A program made the translations under genes and the position numbers. A DNA stretch of 49,765 bases from Bdellovibrionales bacterium (GTDB taxonomy: Bacteria; Bdellovibrionota; Bdellovibrionia; Bdellovibrionales; UBA1609). The notes under the pieces are model-generated. The model saw only the letters and a program-made list of their open reading frames with translations. It had not been told where the DNA came from and did not search any database. The stretch covers positions 1 through 49,765 of the forward strand of contig SKYF01000177.1 in assembly GCA_007128005.1 (NCBI GenBank). Reading direction: 5' to 3'. Shown here piece by piece: positions 2,500 through 11,373 of this stretch (within the stretch, counting starts at the first letter, position 1; each line of letters opens with the position of its first letter).

Positions 2500-3750
2500 T
2501 TAGTCCCCAATGTCTCGGCGCAACTGCATTCCTGGCCATTTGACTTGATCTGCCTGATGATAAGCATTGACCAGGGCTTCCTTCAGGTCAGAACCAAGAC
2601 CTAGGGCATTGAGGACTCGTCCTCCCTGAGTGACCCAGGCCTCTGTCTGAGAGTTGCGTCCCGTTCCGCCGTGAAGAAAGTAACTGCTAGGAGTTTCAAA
2701 AAATACATCTCCCTCAATGGGGGTCCCTTTTACGGGAGAGGCCGGGTAGTTTTCTGCGGCCAGCACCACTGTGGCAGTGGCGATGGGCTTCCAGGCAGGC
2801 TCAGGAAGTTCTCCTCTGGCCACTGCCATTAGAACCTGTCCCCAGTCACCCTCTAACAGCGGGAGGACCACTTGGGCCTCGGGATCACCAAAACGCACAT
2901 TGTACTCCAACACCTTTGGCCCCTTGGGTGTGACCATCACTCCAATGTACAGCACCCCCCGATAAAGAAGCCCCATGGCCTGAAGCTGACGAATGGAGGG
3001 TGCAACCAGTTGGCTCTCAATCTGCTCCAACAGCTCGGGCGCGATAGAAACGGGAGCCACAGCCCCCATTCCTCCTGTGTTAGGACCTTGGTCTCTTTCA
3101 TTGAGCCTCTTGTGGTCCTTGGCCAAAGGCAGCAGGCGATAATCCGTGCCCTCCGTTAAACAGAGAAAGCTCAGCTCAGAGCCCTGTTGATGCTCTTCGA
3201 TCAGTACCTTTTCCCCGGCAGGGCCTAAAATCTTGCGCTCAAAAAGGTCCCGCCCCACTTGCAGAGCCTCTTCCAAACTCGCACAGATAAAGACTCCCTT
3301 GCCAGCTGCGAGTCCATCGGCCTTCAGAACATAAGGGGGCTCAAAGTCAGCCAAAGCCCCCTTGAGCTCCTGCTGAGAAGTGACTACCTGGTATCTGGCC
3401 GTAGGCACCCCAGCCTCTATCATAAACTCCTTGGCAAAGCTCTTACTGGACTCAAGTCGAGCGGCCTCGCCGCTGGGACCAAAAACCGCAACCCCTTCCC
3501 GGCGCAGATCATCTGCCAAGCCCTCGGCCAGAGGTTGCTCAGGGCCAATGACCACCAAGTCTATGGCCGTTTTTTTGACCAATTTACTCAATGCCTCTGA
3601 ATCCGAAGAGCTCACCTCGTGAACCAGGGCCTCTTTGGCCATGGCGGCACTGCCGGGCGCCACATGGACTTCTGTTACCGAGGCTGACAATCTCAGTGCT
3701 CGAACCAAGGCATGTTCTCTGGCCCCCTGACCAATGACCAATACTTTCAT
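2500..3750 (-). CDS. purD: Phosphoribosylamine-glycine ligase (GARS)
   Basis: Catalyses the second step of de novo purine synthesis, joining glycine to 5-phosphoribosylamine with ATP. The protein has 416 residues, close to the usual 420-430. The N-terminal signature GQGAREHAL is a variant of GSGGREHAL. It is followed by GPEQPLAEGL and the ATP-grasp region (LKADGLAAGKGVFIC; EYNVRFGDPEAQ). The ATG at 3750 has AAAGGAGAG upstream. It appears to be transcribed alone, divergently from the SDR-like gene, with no other pur gene in the window. Function is confident. Confidence 0.97.
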   Translation of the reverse strand: MKVLVIGQGAREHALVRALRLSASVTEVHVAPGSAAMAKEALVHEVSSSDSEALSKLVKKTAIDLVVIGPEQPLAEGLADDLRREGVAVFGPSGEAARLESSKSFAKEFMIEAGVPTARYQVVTSQQELKGALADFEPPYVLKADGLAAGKGVFICASLEEALQVGRDLFERKILGPAGEKVLIEEHQQGSELSFLCLTEGTDYRLLPLAKDHKRLNERDQGPNTGGMGAVAPVSIAPELLEQIESQLVAPSIRQLQAMGLLYRGVLYIGVMVTPKGPKVLEYNVRFGDPEAQVVLPLLEGDWGQVLMAVARGELPEPAWKPIATATVVLAAENYPASPVKGTPIEGDVFFETPSSYFLHGGTGRNSQTEAWVTQGGRVLNALGLGSDLKEALVNAYHQADQVKWPGMQLRRDIGD

Positions 3751-3838: not shown

Positions 3839-4627
3839 ATGCGAACTATGTCCTTAAAACTCCAAGACAAAACTATCGTTCTTTCGGGTACATTTGACCC
3901 TCTTATGCAGAACCTAGCCAGCACTCTGACTGGCTTTGGAGCCGATATTGCCCTCATTGGCCCCAATGTCACGCAGGCAAGGCGCTTTAGCGATAGCCTT
4001 AACGATGCCCGAGAAATCGATCCTAACTTTGGTCGCAGTATGATTGTTGAGGCCTCATTGACAGATGAAAGTAGCGTTCAAGAGGCTCTGTCTCGCACGG
4101 CGGAGTCATTTGGTGGCCTGGATGCTCTGATCGACTCAACTGTCAGCCACTCAACAGGTCTCTCCTTTAGTAGTTCCACTGCTGAACAGCTGCTCGGCGA
4201 AGCTCAAGCCGTATTGCACAGAAGTCTGATCACCGCCCAAAAGGCCTTAAAATTTATTGAATGCCGGCAAAAAGGCAGGGTGATTTTCCTGGTTCAAGAC
4301 TCCTGGCGCTGGTCCCTCCCGGGAGAGGAAATTTCCTCGGTCTTTCGCTCCTGCCTGCAGCAACTCACTAAAGTCCTCGCTCAGGAGATCACTGAAAAAA
4401 ATATCACGATAAATGCCGTGGCCCTTGGGGTGACCGAGCCCTTTTTGCGAGAGCGGTTTCCCAATGCCCCATCCATTGAGCAAGCCTTAACTGAGCTCAA
4501 AAAACACTGCCCCCAAGCTCGTCTGGTTGAAAATCAAGATATCTCCCACCTCGTGGCTTTTTTAGCCAGCCCCTTGAGTTCGGCAATCAGTGGGCAAACC
4601 CTCACGGCCAATGGGGGCTGGATTTAA
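3839..4627 (+). CDS. Degenerate short-chain dehydrogenase/reductase (SDR)-like protein
   Basis: A 262-residue Rossmann-fold protein related to FabG-type SDRs. The C-terminal pattern (VAFLASPLSSAISGQTLTANGGWI) is typical of enoyl/ketoacyl reductases, and a TINAVALG segment matches the usual structural motif. Key catalytic features are missing. The NNAG position reads IDSTVSHS, and the YxxxK pair is replaced around ISSVFRSCLQQ. The dinucleotide glycine motif is also poor (LSGTFDPLMQ). It may therefore bind a ligand without redox activity, or use unusual residues. The start is uncertain: ATG 3839 or 3848 (MSLKLQ), neither with a clear ribosome site. It converges with the NodU-like gene, 14 bases apart. 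Confidence 0.75.
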   Translation: MRTMSLKLQDKTIVLSGTFDPLMQNLASTLTGFGADIALIGPNVTQARRFSDSLNDAREIDPNFGRSMIVEASLTDESSVQEALSRTAESFGGLDALIDSTVSHSTGLSFSSSTAEQLLGEAQAVLHRSLITAQKALKFIECRQKGRVIFLVQDSWRWSLPGEEISSVFRSCLQQLTKVLAQEITEKNITINAVALGVTEPFLRERFPNAPSIEQALTELKKHCPQARLVENQDISHLVAFLASPLSSAISGQTLTANGGWI

Positions 4628-4641
4628 AGCGACCTAAAAAA

Positions 4642-5700
4642 TTAAGCCAACTGACCTTCCGGGAGAGGCTGAGGCTTCTTGCGATCATCTGCTGGAGTTT
4701 TTGAGAGCGGAGCTTTGGACTTGGGCTCCTGCTGGAGCCCAAGGAGTGCAGATGCCCCACTGGCACGCAACTGACTGAGTGATCCAGAGAGGATAAATAA
4801 TTTTTGCCGATCAAAAATTCTCGGCAAGACAACAATCAAAATTTCATAAAGTAAACCCTGACCCACCACGCAGATTCTCTCTTCACCCCCCACTAAGAGG
4901 CGTCGAGAGGACTTTAGGGTCATAGCCCACTCCATCACCAGGCTCTCTAAGGAGGCATAAATATCGATCTCCCTGGATGTCACTGGCTGATCGGGGCTGC
5001 GCTGTGGGGAATGAAAGGCGCGGGCAAAGTCCGGGTGATTGTCTTTTAAGATCAGCTGTCCTTGAGAGCCAATTTCCAACCATTCCTCCCGCAACTGATC
5101 TAAAAAGCGAGGCTCCCCATAGCCCGACAGCTCCACAAACTGCCTCTGCGCTCTGCCCCCAGAGAAACCACAAAACTCCGCAAGCCTCTCAAAAAACTCC
5201 TCTGCAGAGTTTCCCTCTGCCTCGGGCCATTTTTTTTGCAGCCCCCTCTCTCCCGCCTCCCAGAGCTGGGCTGTCAGCTGATTCACCTCAGGATCTAAAC
5301 AGATCACAGTCGCTTGACGAAAGCCCGACTGACGAAAGGCCTCATAGGCTAGGGCTCTCTGTGGAGAGATCCGATAAGGTTTTAAATGTCCCAGCCCAAG
5401 AGACTCCACCCAACGAGCTCTCTTTCGATAAACCCAAAACTTGTTCCAAAAATGCCCCTCTTGACTATCTACAATCGTCATCCATTCTATCTGTTGGGGA
5501 TCTATACCTGTGGAGGAATAAACCCTTTGAAGGGCCTGGGGGAGGTCTTCGAACCCGACCTTATGTTGAGCGATGACATGTTGAGCGACAACTTCTTGGG
5601 TGTTGTTTCCCCATCGACTCAAGACAAATGAAACTGTGGGCTCGACTCCGTTGGAGGCCAAACTATCAATCGTTAAACTGTACGTCGAACTCTGCGCCAC
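4642..5700 (-). CDS. NodU/CmcH-like (ASKHA fold) protein lacking metal-binding histidines
   Basis: A 352-residue protein that I align by eye to the N-terminal Kae1-like domain of carbamoyltransferases of the NodU/CmcH/TobZ family. Supporting landmarks are GIDPQQIEWMTIV early, a segment AYEAFRQSGFRQATVICLD where the family has HHxxHAxxAFxxSGFxxAxxxxxDG, a later FVELSGYGEPRFLD resembling K(L/V)MGLAPYG, and DIYASLESLVMEWA resembling the DxAxSxQxxxE helix. The paired histidines are replaced (SPQRALAYEAF) and the DG of the next motif becomes DPEV, so the usual metal and carbamoyl chemistry is unlikely. The C-terminal 40 residues are Pro/Lys-rich and probably disordered. The homology is an inference, not a search result; the role is unknown. 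Confidence 0.55.
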   Translation of the reverse strand: MAQSSTYSLTIDSLASNGVEPTVSFVLSRWGNNTQEVVAQHVIAQHKVGFEDLPQALQRVYSSTGIDPQQIEWMTIVDSQEGHFWNKFWVYRKRARWVESLGLGHLKPYRISPQRALAYEAFRQSGFRQATVICLDPEVNQLTAQLWEAGERGLQKKWPEAEGNSAEEFFERLAEFCGFSGGRAQRQFVELSGYGEPRFLDQLREEWLEIGSQGQLILKDNHPDFARAFHSPQRSPDQPVTSREIDIYASLESLVMEWAMTLKSSRRLLVGGEERICVVGQGLLYEILIVVLPRIFDRQKLFILSGSLSQLRASGASALLGLQQEPKSKAPLSKTPADDRKKPQPLPEGQLA

Positions 5701-5800: not shown

Positions 5801-7117
5801 TCAAAGCTGACGAGAGAGAATCAGACCTTCGGCCTGGGCAAACTTCTCCGGAGCCACATACAACCGGTCAATAGTGCGAATTTCCTCATATTTTTTAAAA
5901 ATCTCTGTGCTGTCTTGAAGGCTGTAGGGCTGGGCCCTGCGGTCATATTGATCGACCACGTAGATCCCAAAGGGCTTTTCCTGGGGAGTCATCGTGTGAT
6001 ATTTACTCAGCCTTAGCTGAGAACTGGCCCAAATCACCTCGACCCCTTCAGATTCAAGGGCCTGGGCCATTTTCTCCGGTCGCTCCGTGGCCCTTGTAGA
6101 ATGCAGCTCAAAGAGCATACGAAAGGGCTTTCTCTCCGAAATCCTCCGAGCCCAGGGGTTGTCCACTGAAGCCAGGTGTTCAAAAAGAGCATAGTCTGTG
6201 CACTTGATGTACTCCTCAATCTCTGCTGGGAGAAAGAAGCTACAGTCCGGAGAAGTCAAATAACGACTCAAAATCTCTTCGTAGATGATGCCCTTGTGAT
6301 GAAAGTAGACCATCAAATGCATATGGTGCCGCGCTAACAGGAAATCATCAAAGGTATAAAGGGCTCTGCGATTGAGGGCCAAGTGGAGATTTCCATCCAC
6401 TAAATGCGAGCTCATGTTGGCCAGTAGCCACGACTGCTCCACTTTCCCATAATTGGTCCCACAAAAATAGGCATCCCTAGCCAAATAGTCCAGGCGATCT
6501 ACGTCCATCTCAGAGCTGATCAACTGACTGAGAATCACCCTAAAGTTGAAGCCCTGATCCAAAAAAAAATCATCTTCAACCTGCAAGCTCACATCTACTA
6601 AACAGGCAATGTGTTCTGGCCCAATATCGGGAAACTGGGCGCGCAAAATGGGGGTCAAGGAAGAGTCGGTGATAAATTTAATCGTGTAGTCCTCATGATT
6701 GGCTCTAGACTTCAAATCAGGTGCCCCCTGGCGCAAGCGATAGATTTCCACTCCAAGATCCCCAAGCGGGGGCATCACCTCTTCTGTGGTGTGAGACAGG
6801 GGACCATGGCCGATATCATGAAGCAGGGCTGCAAGCCTCAGCACCTGGCGCAGTCGCTGACGAACCTGATGATTGGAAAACTGAAAGTCCTTAAAAATAT
6901 GATCAAAGGCCACCGCAGCAAGATGGCAGACCCCAATCGAATGCAGGTAGCGGTTGTGAGTCGCCCCAGGGAAGCTGAATTCGGAAAAACCCAACTGCTT
7001 GATCGAGCGCAATCGCTGATAGGCCAAACTGTCCAAAACCGCCACCTCAGCCCGAGACAGCTCAATGGATCCATGAATGGGGTCTCTGATCTCCATATCC
7101 CCTTTTAGGCCTTTCAT
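5801..7117 (-). CDS. HD-domain phosphohydrolase (dGTPase/SAMHD1-like family)
   Basis: A 438-residue metal-dependent phosphohydrolase. It opens with IRDPIHGSIELS, typical of this family, and the metal ligands are visible: H in RYLHSIGVCHLA, HD in ALLHDIGHGPLSH, and the distal D in MDVDRLDYLARDAYF. Relatives hydrolyse dNTPs or other nucleotides; the exact substrate cannot be told from sequence. The frame opens at ATG 7117 with a weak site. An ATG at 7096 (MEIRDPIHG) preceded by AAAAGGGG is the better fit to family N termini. It diverges from thyA, whose product also concerns dNTP pools, which makes a role in nucleotide balance plausible but unproven. Confidence 0.9.
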   Translation of the reverse strand: MKGLKGDMEIRDPIHGSIELSRAEVAVLDSLAYQRLRSIKQLGFSEFSFPGATHNRYLHSIGVCHLAAVAFDHIFKDFQFSNHQVRQRLRQVLRLAALLHDIGHGPLSHTTEEVMPPLGDLGVEIYRLRQGAPDLKSRANHEDYTIKFITDSSLTPILRAQFPDIGPEHIACLVDVSLQVEDDFFLDQGFNFRVILSQLISSEMDVDRLDYLARDAYFCGTNYGKVEQSWLLANMSSHLVDGNLHLALNRRALYTFDDFLLARHHMHLMVYFHHKGIIYEEILSRYLTSPDCSFFLPAEIEEYIKCTDYALFEHLASVDNPWARRISERKPFRMLFELHSTRATERPEKMAQALESEGVEVIWASSQLRLSKYHTMTPQEKPFGIYVVDQYDRRAQPYSLQDSTEIFKKYEEIRTIDRLYVAPEKFAQAEGLILSRQL

Positions 7118-8574: not shown

Positions 8575-8607
8575 TTGCAATCCACTATAGTAACGTGTAC
8601 TATAGTG
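8575..8607 (+). promoter_or_regulatory. Promoter and 9-bp inverted-repeat operator of the BrnTA-type locus
   Basis: A perfect inverted repeat CACTATAGT-N7-ACTATAGTG occupies 8583-8607. A promoter-like TTGCAA (8575-8580) and TACTAT (8598-8603), 17 bases apart, overlap it. This arrangement suits autorepression by the downstream ribbon-helix-helix antitoxin. The predicted transcript start is only a few bases from the toxin ATG. Confidence 0.6.
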
Positions 8608-8613
8608 TTGTAT

Positions 8614-8970
8614 ATGGCGCAGTTTAAATTCGTCCTCTGGTTGGCTTATTGGTATCTCCAGACTGAGTCATTTGAATTTGAATGGGATGTGGGGAATTGC
8701 ACAAAAAGCCTTAAAAAACATGGGGTTAATTGTGACGATGTTGAATCCATCTTCTCTCTGAAAATGGCCGTTCCCATTGGTAGACAGGTTCGCCCTGAAG
8801 TCGAAGAAGAACGACTTTGTATAGTCGGGCCTACACGAATCGGAACATTTATTTCTGTGGTTTTTACTCTCAGGGATGGGCGAGTTCGCCCCATAAGCTC
8901 TAGGCCGGCGAGTCGAAAGGAGAAGATGCTTTATGAAAAAATACGCAAAACGCTTGAAGGAGTACGATAA
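8614..8970 (+). CDS. brnT: BrnT-family (DUF497) toxin
   Basis: A small RelE-like ribonuclease toxin of a type II toxin-antitoxin pair. The core FEFEWDVGNCTKSLKKHGV matches the BrnT pattern FEWDxxKxxxNxxKHGVxF, followed by DVESIF, and the C-terminal half has the RPISSRPASRKEK pattern typical of the family. The ORF track opens at a TTG at 8575 that lies in the promoter; ATG 8614 (118 residues) is more likely, although the transcript may then be nearly leaderless. A start farther in cannot be excluded, since 20 residues precede the conserved core. The antitoxin gene overlaps its end by 38 bases, in line with coupled expression. Confidence 0.8.
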   Translation: MAQFKFVLWLAYWYLQTESFEFEWDVGNCTKSLKKHGVNCDDVESIFSLKMAVPIGRQVRPEVEEERLCIVGPTRIGTFISVVFTLRDGRVRPISSRPASRKEKMLYEKIRKTLEGVR

Positions 8971-9217: not shown

Positions 9218-9305
9218 TCAAGCCTCAAACTGAGACACCGAAGAGAGGGATGACAGTAAAGAACCCACTGGGATGGGCCCAGTAGGCATCAAGGATCGAT
9301 GCCTA
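9218..9305 (+). promoter_or_regulatory. Flagellin-1 leader: weak sigma-28 candidate and two stem-loops
   Basis: TCAA-N15-ACCGAAGA (9218-9244) is a weak match to the FliA consensus TAAA-N15-GCCGATAA with the right spacing. Two hairpins follow: ACTGGG-N5-CCCAGT (9267-9283) and TAGGCATC-N7-GATGCCTA (9283-9305), a perfect 8-bp stem. They lie just before the GGAGGAGG ribosome site and could govern mRNA stability or translation. No U-tract follows, so they are not obvious terminators. Confidence 0.4.
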
Positions 9306-9332
9306 GTCAATTCTTCACGGAGGAGGAAAAAA

Positions 9333-10178
9333 ATGGGTTTACGGATCAATACCAACACAGCTTCGCTGAACGCTCAGAGAAATCTGATGAGCACGAAGTT
9401 GGGTTTAGACAGAAGCCTGGAGAGACTCTCCTCGGGCTTTCGCATCAATCGAGCCGGTGACGACGCTGCCGGACTCGCAATATCAGAAAATCTAAGAGCT
9501 CAAATCAGAGGTCTTAGACAGGCCTCTCGAAATGCCCAGGACGGTGTGTCTTTGGTGCAGGTGGCTGAGGGCTCACTCAATGAGATCAGCTCGATCCTGA
9601 TCCGGCTGCGTGAGTTGGCTGTTCAGGCGGCTTCAGACACCATTGGCCCGGTCGAACGCCAGTTCTTGAATGTGGAGTTTGACCAGCTTCTCTCGGAGAT
9701 CGATAGGATCGCCGACAGCACTGAGTTCAATGGCACCCAGCTACTCAGCGGAACCGGGTCCATTCTGGACTTTCAGGTCGGCACCCGAAACGATCCAAAC
9801 ATCGACCGTCTGTCGTTTGATGCCTCAAAGGCCGATGCCAATACGGCGGCCCTTGGGATGAACTTGACCAGTGTTGCCGACAAGGCCTCAGCACAAAACA
9901 CTCTGGCAGCCATTGACTCGGCGATTGTGAGTGTTTCGGCCATGAGGGCGGATTTTGGAGCGATTCAAAACCGACTCCAATCCACCATCAGCAACCTGGC
10001 CGTGTCGGTAGAGAATATGTCTGCAGCCAACAGCCGAATTCGCGATGTGGATGTGGCGGAGGAAACTGCAGAGTTGACGAAGAATAATATTTTGTTGCAG
10101 GCAGGGACGTCTGTGCTCGCACAAGCGAACCAAACAGCCCAAACTGCATTGACTCTTTTGAATCGCACCTTCAGCTAA
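9333..10178 (+). CDS. fliC: Flagellin (short, Bdellovibrio type), copy 1
   Basis: A 281-residue filament subunit made only of the conserved N-terminal (MGLRINTNTASLNAQRNL, GDDAAGLAISENLRAQIRGL) and C-terminal (SAANSRIRDVDVAEETAELTKNNILLQAG) D0/D1 regions joined by a short middle, with no variable D2/D3 domain. The ORF track adds 20 residues. The true start is ATG 9333, because GGAGGAGG stands just upstream and the protein then begins MGLRIN as in relatives. Bdellovibrio builds its sheathed polar flagellum from several such short paralogues. A second copy lies 361 bases downstream, and hairpins occupy both leaders. Confidence 0.95.
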   Translation: MGLRINTNTASLNAQRNLMSTKLGLDRSLERLSSGFRINRAGDDAAGLAISENLRAQIRGLRQASRNAQDGVSLVQVAEGSLNEISSILIRLRELAVQAASDTIGPVERQFLNVEFDQLLSEIDRIADSTEFNGTQLLSGTGSILDFQVGTRNDPNIDRLSFDASKADANTAALGMNLTSVADKASAQNTLAAIDSAIVSVSAMRADFGAIQNRLQSTISNLAVSVENMSAANSRIRDVDVAEETAELTKNNILLQAGTSVLAQANQTAQTALTLLNRTFS

Positions 10179-10542
10179 TCACTTGGGGGGGGGACTCCCC
10201 CAGTGATTCGATGACTGGTGTCTTGGTTCAAAACTTTTAGCTCACAAGAGATGCAATGGATTGCATCTCGACCCCAAGGCAAATTAGCTCAAAGGGTCAC
10301 TAAATATAAATACTTGTTTCCTGCGCCGCAGGGGCCGCCCCTTATTTAAGGGCGGCTCCCTCATTCCATCCGGCAAGCCCACAAAAATTATTTGAAAACT
10401 GGACTCATAAATACCATCTAAAAAGCCGATCTCATTATGGGGACATACACCCAATTAACAATAACCGCGGCACACGATGTGCCCGTAGCCAAGGGATTGG
10501 CGCTTATCAAGGAGGATGAGAAATGCAAGGAGGATAAAAATG
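10177..10542 (+). promoter_or_regulatory. Inter-flagellin region: hairpins, sigma-28 candidate and duplicated ribosome site
   Basis: This 361-base gap holds no gene. It has a strong stem over the flagellin-1 stop (AATCACT/AGTGATT plus G5/C5, 10177-10208). A perfect 9-bp stem GAGATGCAA-TGGA-TTGCATCTC (10248-10269) follows, then a GC-rich terminator-like stem GCCGCCC/GGGCGGC (10334-10356), and finally a GGCACA-CGA-TGTGCC stem (10469-10483). TAAA (10408) and GCCGAT (10425-10430) resemble a FliA promoter with 13 instead of 15 bases between. A ribosome-site plus ATG block is duplicated at 10508-10542. Confidence 0.55.
10334..10356 (+). terminator. GC-rich hairpin, possible flagellin-1 terminator
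   Basis: GCCGCCC pairs with GGGCGGC around a 9-base loop. The flanking GGG/CCC could extend the stem across a bulged T. The following bases are only moderately T-rich (TCATTCC), so termination efficiency is uncertain. Confidence 0.4.
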
Positions 10543-11373
10543 GGATTACGAATATCTACCAATGTGGCTTCTCTGAATGCTCAGAAGAACCTCAGTGGAA
10601 CCGGTCGAGACCTGGATCGTTCGCTGGCTCGACTCAGCTCAGGCTTTCGCATCAATCAAGCCGCTGACGATGCAGCTGGTTTGGCAATCAGCGAAAACCT
10701 GAGAGGGCAGATCCGAGGACTCAAGCAGGCCTCACGCAACGCCAATGACGGTGTGTCTTTGGTGCAGGTGGCCGAAGGAGGGCTCAACGAAATGTCTTCT
10801 ATGCTGATTCGATTGAGGGAGCTTGCCGTGCAGGCCGCTTCCGACACCATCGGTGACACTGAAAGACGGTTTATCGATGTCGAGTATCAGCAGCTGAAAT
10901 CTGAGATGCAGAGAATTGCAGAGGTCACTCGGTTCAATGGACGAGACCTGCTCAACGGCACAGGGGGAGTACTGGATGTTCAAGTGGGTGTGTACAATGA
11001 CCCCTTTAAGGACAGGCTGTCCTTCAATGCCTCTGCGGCCAATGCATCCCTGGATGCTCTGGGCCTTACGGCAGAGACAGTGGGCACAAAAGAGCAGGCT
11101 CAGGCCAGCTTGGATGTGGTGGACAGGGCGATGGTTTCAGTCAATGCGATGCGCGCCAACTTTGGAGCCTTGCAAAACAGACTGACCTCAACCATCAACA
11201 ACCTGGCCATTGCCCATGAGAACCTGTCAGCTGCCAACAGCCGCATTCGCGATGCCGACATTGCTGAGGAGACAGCTGAGCTCACTCGCAACAGCATCCT
11301 GATGCAGGCAGGAGTCAGTGTCCTGGGGCAAGCCAACCAGATGCAGCAAGTTGCTCTCCAGCTCTTGAGCTAA
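10540..11373 (+). CDS. fliC: Flagellin (short, Bdellovibrio type), copy 2
   Basis: A 277-residue paralogue of the preceding flagellin with the same D0/D1-only layout. The start is ATG 10540, preceded by AAGGAGGAT; the ORF-track extension MRNARRIK is leader sequence. The N terminus MGLRISTNVASLNAQKNL and the C-terminal SAANSRIRDADIAEETAELTRNSILMQAG are canonical. Compared with copy 1 it has ADDAAGLAISE instead of GDDAAGLAISE and lacks the final TFS. Having its own promoter candidate and a hairpin-rich leader suggests separately tuned expression, for instance placement in different parts of the filament. Confidence 0.95.
   Translation: MGLRISTNVASLNAQKNLSGTGRDLDRSLARLSSGFRINQAADDAAGLAISENLRGQIRGLKQASRNANDGVSLVQVAEGGLNEMSSMLIRLRELAVQAASDTIGDTERRFIDVEYQQLKSEMQRIAEVTRFNGRDLLNGTGGVLDVQVGVYNDPFKDRLSFNASAANASLDALGLTAETVGTKEQAQASLDVVDRAMVSVNAMRANFGALQNRLTSTINNLAIAHENLSAANSRIRDADIAEETAELTRNSILMQAGVSVLGQANQMQQVALQLLS

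Follow-up and report, generated by a model that had tools for sequence, protein, structure and literature searches.

Class III carbamoyltransferases of the NodU/TobZ/GdmN/NovN type (PF02543) combine a Kae1-like ASKHA N-domain with a YrdC-like C-terminal domain (Carbam_trans_C, PF16861). In GdmN, the iron is held by H133, H137, D156, and D333, and the H27N substitution abolished activity (PMC9633730). A stand-alone degenerate Kae1-like protein is also known, namely, TsaB/YeaZ, a TsaD paralogue (PMC11648230), which has no metal or nucleotide site, is descended from TsaD, and acts as its partner. The initial annotation of the gene considered here was therefore mistaken in regarding a stand-alone degenerate Kae1-like domain as undescribed (PMC11648230). 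What appears to be new is the carbamoyltransferase origin of such a protein, and its distribution is narrow; no earlier description of a carbamoyltransferase-derived pseudoenzyme was found in the open literature searched (CC-licensed papers).

The gene lies in the window, by which we mean the whole stretch of 49,765 nucleotides that was analyzed:

4642..5700, minus strand: probable stand-alone degenerate Kae1-like (Carbam_trans_N-derived) pseudoenzyme (ORF, hhalign, AlphaFold2, Foldseek)

Its reading frame is intact and encodes 352 amino acids from a GTG start codon, with no clear ribosome-binding site upstream of that codon. The stretch RISPQRALAYEAFRQSGFRQATVICLDPEVNQ, quoted by the initial annotation as the motif region, is indeed present in the product. 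The protein resembles class III carbamoyltransferases in that it aligns with their Kae1-like N-domain over most of its length and shares their YGEPxF and RxPE...DLxAS stretches, and a full-length member is found at the same locus in a related genome (G005). It differs from them in lacking HHxxH, the base histidine, the second metal aspartate, GG..N, and the YrdC-like C-terminal domain, in measuring 352 rather than ~610 residues, and in falling below Pfam detection on its own. TsaB/YeaZ is likewise a stand-alone degenerate Kae1-like ASKHA protein, but the window protein derives from a carbamoyltransferase instead of TsaD, and no catalytic carbamoyltransferase with which it could pair was found in its genome. 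A role as a TsaB replacement was ruled out: TsaD and a TsaB-like protein of 249 aa are already encoded in the genome, and the window protein shows no sequence relation to TsaD.

Homology, fold, and distribution

Such proteins escape annotation. With the single window sequence, HMMER found no family in Pfam or NCBIfam, even at E 10, and only chance-level matches in the PDB; a match to glycyl-tRNA synthetase (E 0.07) is regarded as chance as well. A plain HMMER version of the Pfam comparison that the initial annotation had proposed would thus seem to refute its assignment to Carbam_trans_N, and yet the link is seen once two relatives are included or profiles are compared with profiles. By hhalign, the window protein alone matched true carbamoyltransferases at 97.9% (E 3.5e-13), and the three degenerate proteins matched ten true carbamoyltransferases at 99.7% (E 2.2e-25). 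A control with the TsaD of the same genome gave 0.3%, that is, no detectable sequence relation to TsaD/Kae1, which belongs to the same fold superfamily by Foldseek and differs also in having the metal site that the window protein lacks. The match to PF02543 is graded across the three proteins: the relative in G028, a genome of another genus, reaches E 6.6e-5 (22.9 bits, just below the Carbam_trans_N cut-off of 24 bits), that in G001 reaches 0.039, and the window protein has none.

The predicted fold agrees with this assignment. An AlphaFold2 model of the window protein (pLDDT 80), for which the input alignment included true carbamoyltransferases, gave GdmN, NovN, TsaD, and TobZ as its best PDB matches in Foldseek. 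A second model (pLDDT 72), for which the three degenerate sequences alone were used, again matched GdmN first (E 7e-12), with TobZ and YeaZ/TsaB also among the matches, so that the fold assignment is independent of the true-enzyme alignment. By profile comparison and structure search, the window protein belongs with the Kae1-like N-domain of class III (NodU/TobZ/GdmN) carbamoyltransferases, and the homology proposed by the initial annotation holds.

The degenerate form belongs to a few Bdellovibrio-like bacteria: it was detected by profile search in 3 of 144 genomes of the class, namely, the window genome (G000), G001, and G028. The only other genome of the genus in the set, G001, encodes a relative of 343 aa with 36% identity to the window protein; G028 has a 396-codon frame, corresponding to 388 aa from the start codon. 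Beyond these two relatives, the related-genome search finds full-length carbamoyltransferases of ~610 aa in which HHLSHAASAFY is intact (E down to 6e-17). A pattern-based scan of GTDB contigs gave the same order, the two relatives surfacing first and the true enzymes after them. The losses of the metal site and the C-terminal domain are common to all three degenerate proteins. In G028, a true carbamoyltransferase is still present elsewhere in the genome.

Residues lost and kept

A residue table was derived from a 13-row alignment that includes the three degenerate proteins and true enzymes. The positions of interest in the window are as follows:

5350..5364, minus strand: position of the HHxxH metal motif, which reads PQRAL (residues 113-117) and has no histidine (alignment, residue table)
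5281..5295, minus strand: position of DGVGE, which reads DPEVN (residues 136-140), the metal aspartate being kept and the glycine and glutamate lost (residue table)
5104..5121, minus strand: YGEPRF (residues 194-199), the best-conserved motif in common with true carbamoyltransferases (alignment)
4963..4974, minus strand: REID (residues 243-246), kept in all three degenerate proteins (alignment, residue table)
4774..4776, minus strand: S309, at the position of the second metal aspartate (D333 of GdmN, D339 of the G005 enzyme) (residue table; PMC9633730)

H133, H134, and H137 of the true enzymes are replaced by P113, Q114, and L117 in the window protein, by P, G, and L in G001, and by D, E, and A in G028, in line with the claimed loss of the HxxxH metal site. 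The initial annotation also held that the following DG was gone, which is correct for the glycine (G157, now P137) but not for the aspartate: D156, the first metal aspartate, persists as D136 in the window protein, as E in G001, and as D in G028. The second metal aspartate has become S in the window protein, K in G001, and P in G028. For G028, a shift by one residue could bring an aspartate back to this position, and its protein may therefore be an intermediate. At the position of the general base (H11; GdmN H27), the window protein has Ser16; a 5-residue insertion blurs this placement, and no histidine is nearby. This base, G311, N315, and E160 are lost in all three proteins, as is the GG..N motif. 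The YrdC-like domain is absent from the window protein, and no match to it was found anywhere in the G000 or G001 genome, which bears out the earlier claims that the C-terminal domain is missing and that the protein stands alone. Residues kept in all three are mostly structural (L17, P42, S185, G198, F199, L211, G215, G234, R265, D277, S281, G310, G345, and A346 in G005 numbering).

ASKHA proteins bind many ligands. Conceivably, the window protein has been re-purposed as a ligand- or nucleotide-binding sensor or enzyme, in which the ASKHA cleft with D136 would accommodate another small molecule without a histidine metal site. The predicted retention of the fold is consistent with this idea, and so is the fact that each of the three proteins has D or E where true enzymes have D156. 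Against it, G311 and N315 of the nucleotide loop and the GDAGG motif are lost. Furthermore, the three degenerate proteins agree at 14 positions where true enzymes rarely have the same residue (two of these, the start Met and a position within the unaligned tail, are trivial), and inspection of this list revealed no evident clustering of new polar residues around the former active site. We consider re-purposing of this kind improbable.

A shared locus and the origin of the gene

The gene is flanked by the following features:

5801..7117, minus strand: HD-domain protein (dGTPase-like), 438 aa, upstream and co-oriented, a fixed neighbor in the family
3839..4627, plus strand: short-chain dehydrogenase (SDR), convergent, at the start of the conserved right flank
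2500..3750, minus strand: PurD (phosphoribosylglycinamide synthetase), in the conserved right flank

In the family, the genes typically run in the order HD protein, sometimes a DCC1-like gene, SDR, and PurD. A carbamoyltransferase-related gene directly follows the HD gene in 3 of the 28 relatives' loci inspected (G005, G028, and G001), the window being a fourth case, and the products measure 611 aa in G005 (the full enzyme), 388 aa in G028, 352 aa in the window, and 343 aa in G001. A tree of carbamoyltransferases, in which L084 is a poorly aligned row with a very long branch, unites the three degenerate proteins in one clade (92/95) nested among the enzymes of the family itself and places the G005 enzyme as their weakly supported sister (56/71). 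Within the 13-row alignment, R243 and E244 occur together elsewhere only in this same G005 enzyme, where the motif reads REMD. Given the common locus in three degenerate and one full-length genome, the clade, and the shared R243/E244, the window protein reads as a derivative of the family's NodU/TobZ-type enzyme that would have arisen as a single gene was reduced in place. That the change ran from a G005-like to a G028-like form is suggested by the active site and domain of the G005 enzyme, both of which are intact. Because the steps can be followed at one syntenic position, a conversion from enzyme to scaffold becomes directly testable.

An assembly artefact was ruled out, as the gene follows the same HD gene in three separate assemblies. 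A phage gene was dismissed on the grounds that there is no phage match and no relative on viral contigs, and a defence gene because PADLOC gave no match.

Synteny raises the question of whether the window protein serves the dNTPase-like HD-domain protein encoded next to it as a regulatory or partner subunit. The gene is directly downstream of the HD gene and co-oriented with it in G000, G001, and G028, with a 100-nt gap in the window. However, most of the family has the HD gene but not this one, the full-length enzyme occupies the same place in G005, and synteny alone is a weak argument. A dedicated subunit of this type therefore seems very improbable to us, although the HD protein would be the first partner candidate to consider, even if it is usually found without this gene. 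The HD protein itself weakly resembles the dGTPase models of NCBIfam (E 3e-5) and PADLOC (E 2e-5), and its presence in 41 of 47 family genomes makes it look housekeeping rather than defensive.

Selection, decay, and a putative scaffold role

The window protein evolves much faster than its neighbors. Between G000 and G001, its identity is 36%, compared with 91% for the HD protein, 87% for ThyA, 71% for PurD, and 69% for the SDR. Such very fast evolution might reflect relaxed constraint or late decay, and it may be argued that the gene is a decaying pseudogene, the truncated remnant of an unneeded carbamoyltransferase that happens to be open in these genomes. The low identity fits this explanation, as do the loss of catalytic residues and of a whole domain, the absence of the gene at this locus in most relatives, and the lack of a clear ribosome-binding site before the GTG. 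Codon-position matches of 0.47, 0.56, and 0.32 for positions 1, 2, and 3 (third-position chance, 0.27) compare with 0.38, 0.47, and 0.29 in a codon-shuffled alignment control, so that this measure alone is modest evidence. Simulated unconstrained drift broke the frame in all of the 500 runs made at every step from 0.2 changes per site upward, whereas the frames of 343, 352, and 388 codons are open in all three lineages with third positions near chance identity. That the frames stay open at such saturated divergence speaks against a plain pseudogene, as do the shared, newly fixed residues and the ASKHA fold predicted from degenerate sequences alone. Selection for a protein product is thus likely, and decay is in our opinion unlikely, though slightly less so than the re-purposing discussed above.

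We favor, with a probability of about two in three (0.68), the explanation that the window protein is a non-catalytic pseudoenzyme, a truncated class III carbamoyltransferase kept as a binding or scaffold subunit. A full-length class III gene just downstream of the HD gene would have been reduced to its N-terminal Kae1-like domain, losing the metal ligands, base, and nucleotide loop but not the ASKHA core, a course of events supported by sequence, synteny, and the modelled fold. The missing residues suggest that carbamoyl-adenylate is no longer made or used, and from what is known of the family, carbamoyl transfer is not expected of a protein that lacks the metal site, the base, the nucleotide loop, and the YrdC-like domain. 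By analogy with TsaB, the protein would most likely have been retained for a non-catalytic role in binding or as a scaffold, with contacts perhaps made via two conserved stretches, YGEPRF and RxPxQPVTxREIDxxASLExLxxxW. Since D136 is still there, some residual ion or ligand binding is conceivable. Neither G000 nor G001 yielded a full-length carbamoyltransferase; the partner would thus not be another carbamoyltransferase of the same cell, and a role as subunit of a second such enzyme was ruled out. Taken further, the scaffold explanation might make this a second, independent TsaB-like non-catalytic ASKHA subunit, derived from an antibiotic/nodulation-type carbamoyltransferase and now serving an unrelated partner in a cell without a catalytic homologue, with full-length, intermediate, and reduced forms all surviving at the same locus among extant relatives. 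This extension is tentative, and we think it somewhat less probable than its converse.

Some other observations concern the family and the window. In G028 (L025, contig C616, 2981-5126), a full-length carbamoyltransferase is followed by a small membrane-like protein without a Pfam match, and a similar hydrophobic stretch follows the carbamoyltransferase in one frame in another genome (L014, G019:C384). These two arrangements suggest a system of a carbamoyltransferase and a membrane partner in this family. Between the folA and flagellin genes of the window lies a BrnT-type ribonuclease toxin (8575-8970; Pfam PF04365, E 2.7e-15) that was not found at the corresponding site of the congener. The tandem flagellin-like genes at 9273-10178 and 10516-11373 share ~70% mutual identity, and both are found in the congener with 96 to 98% identity.
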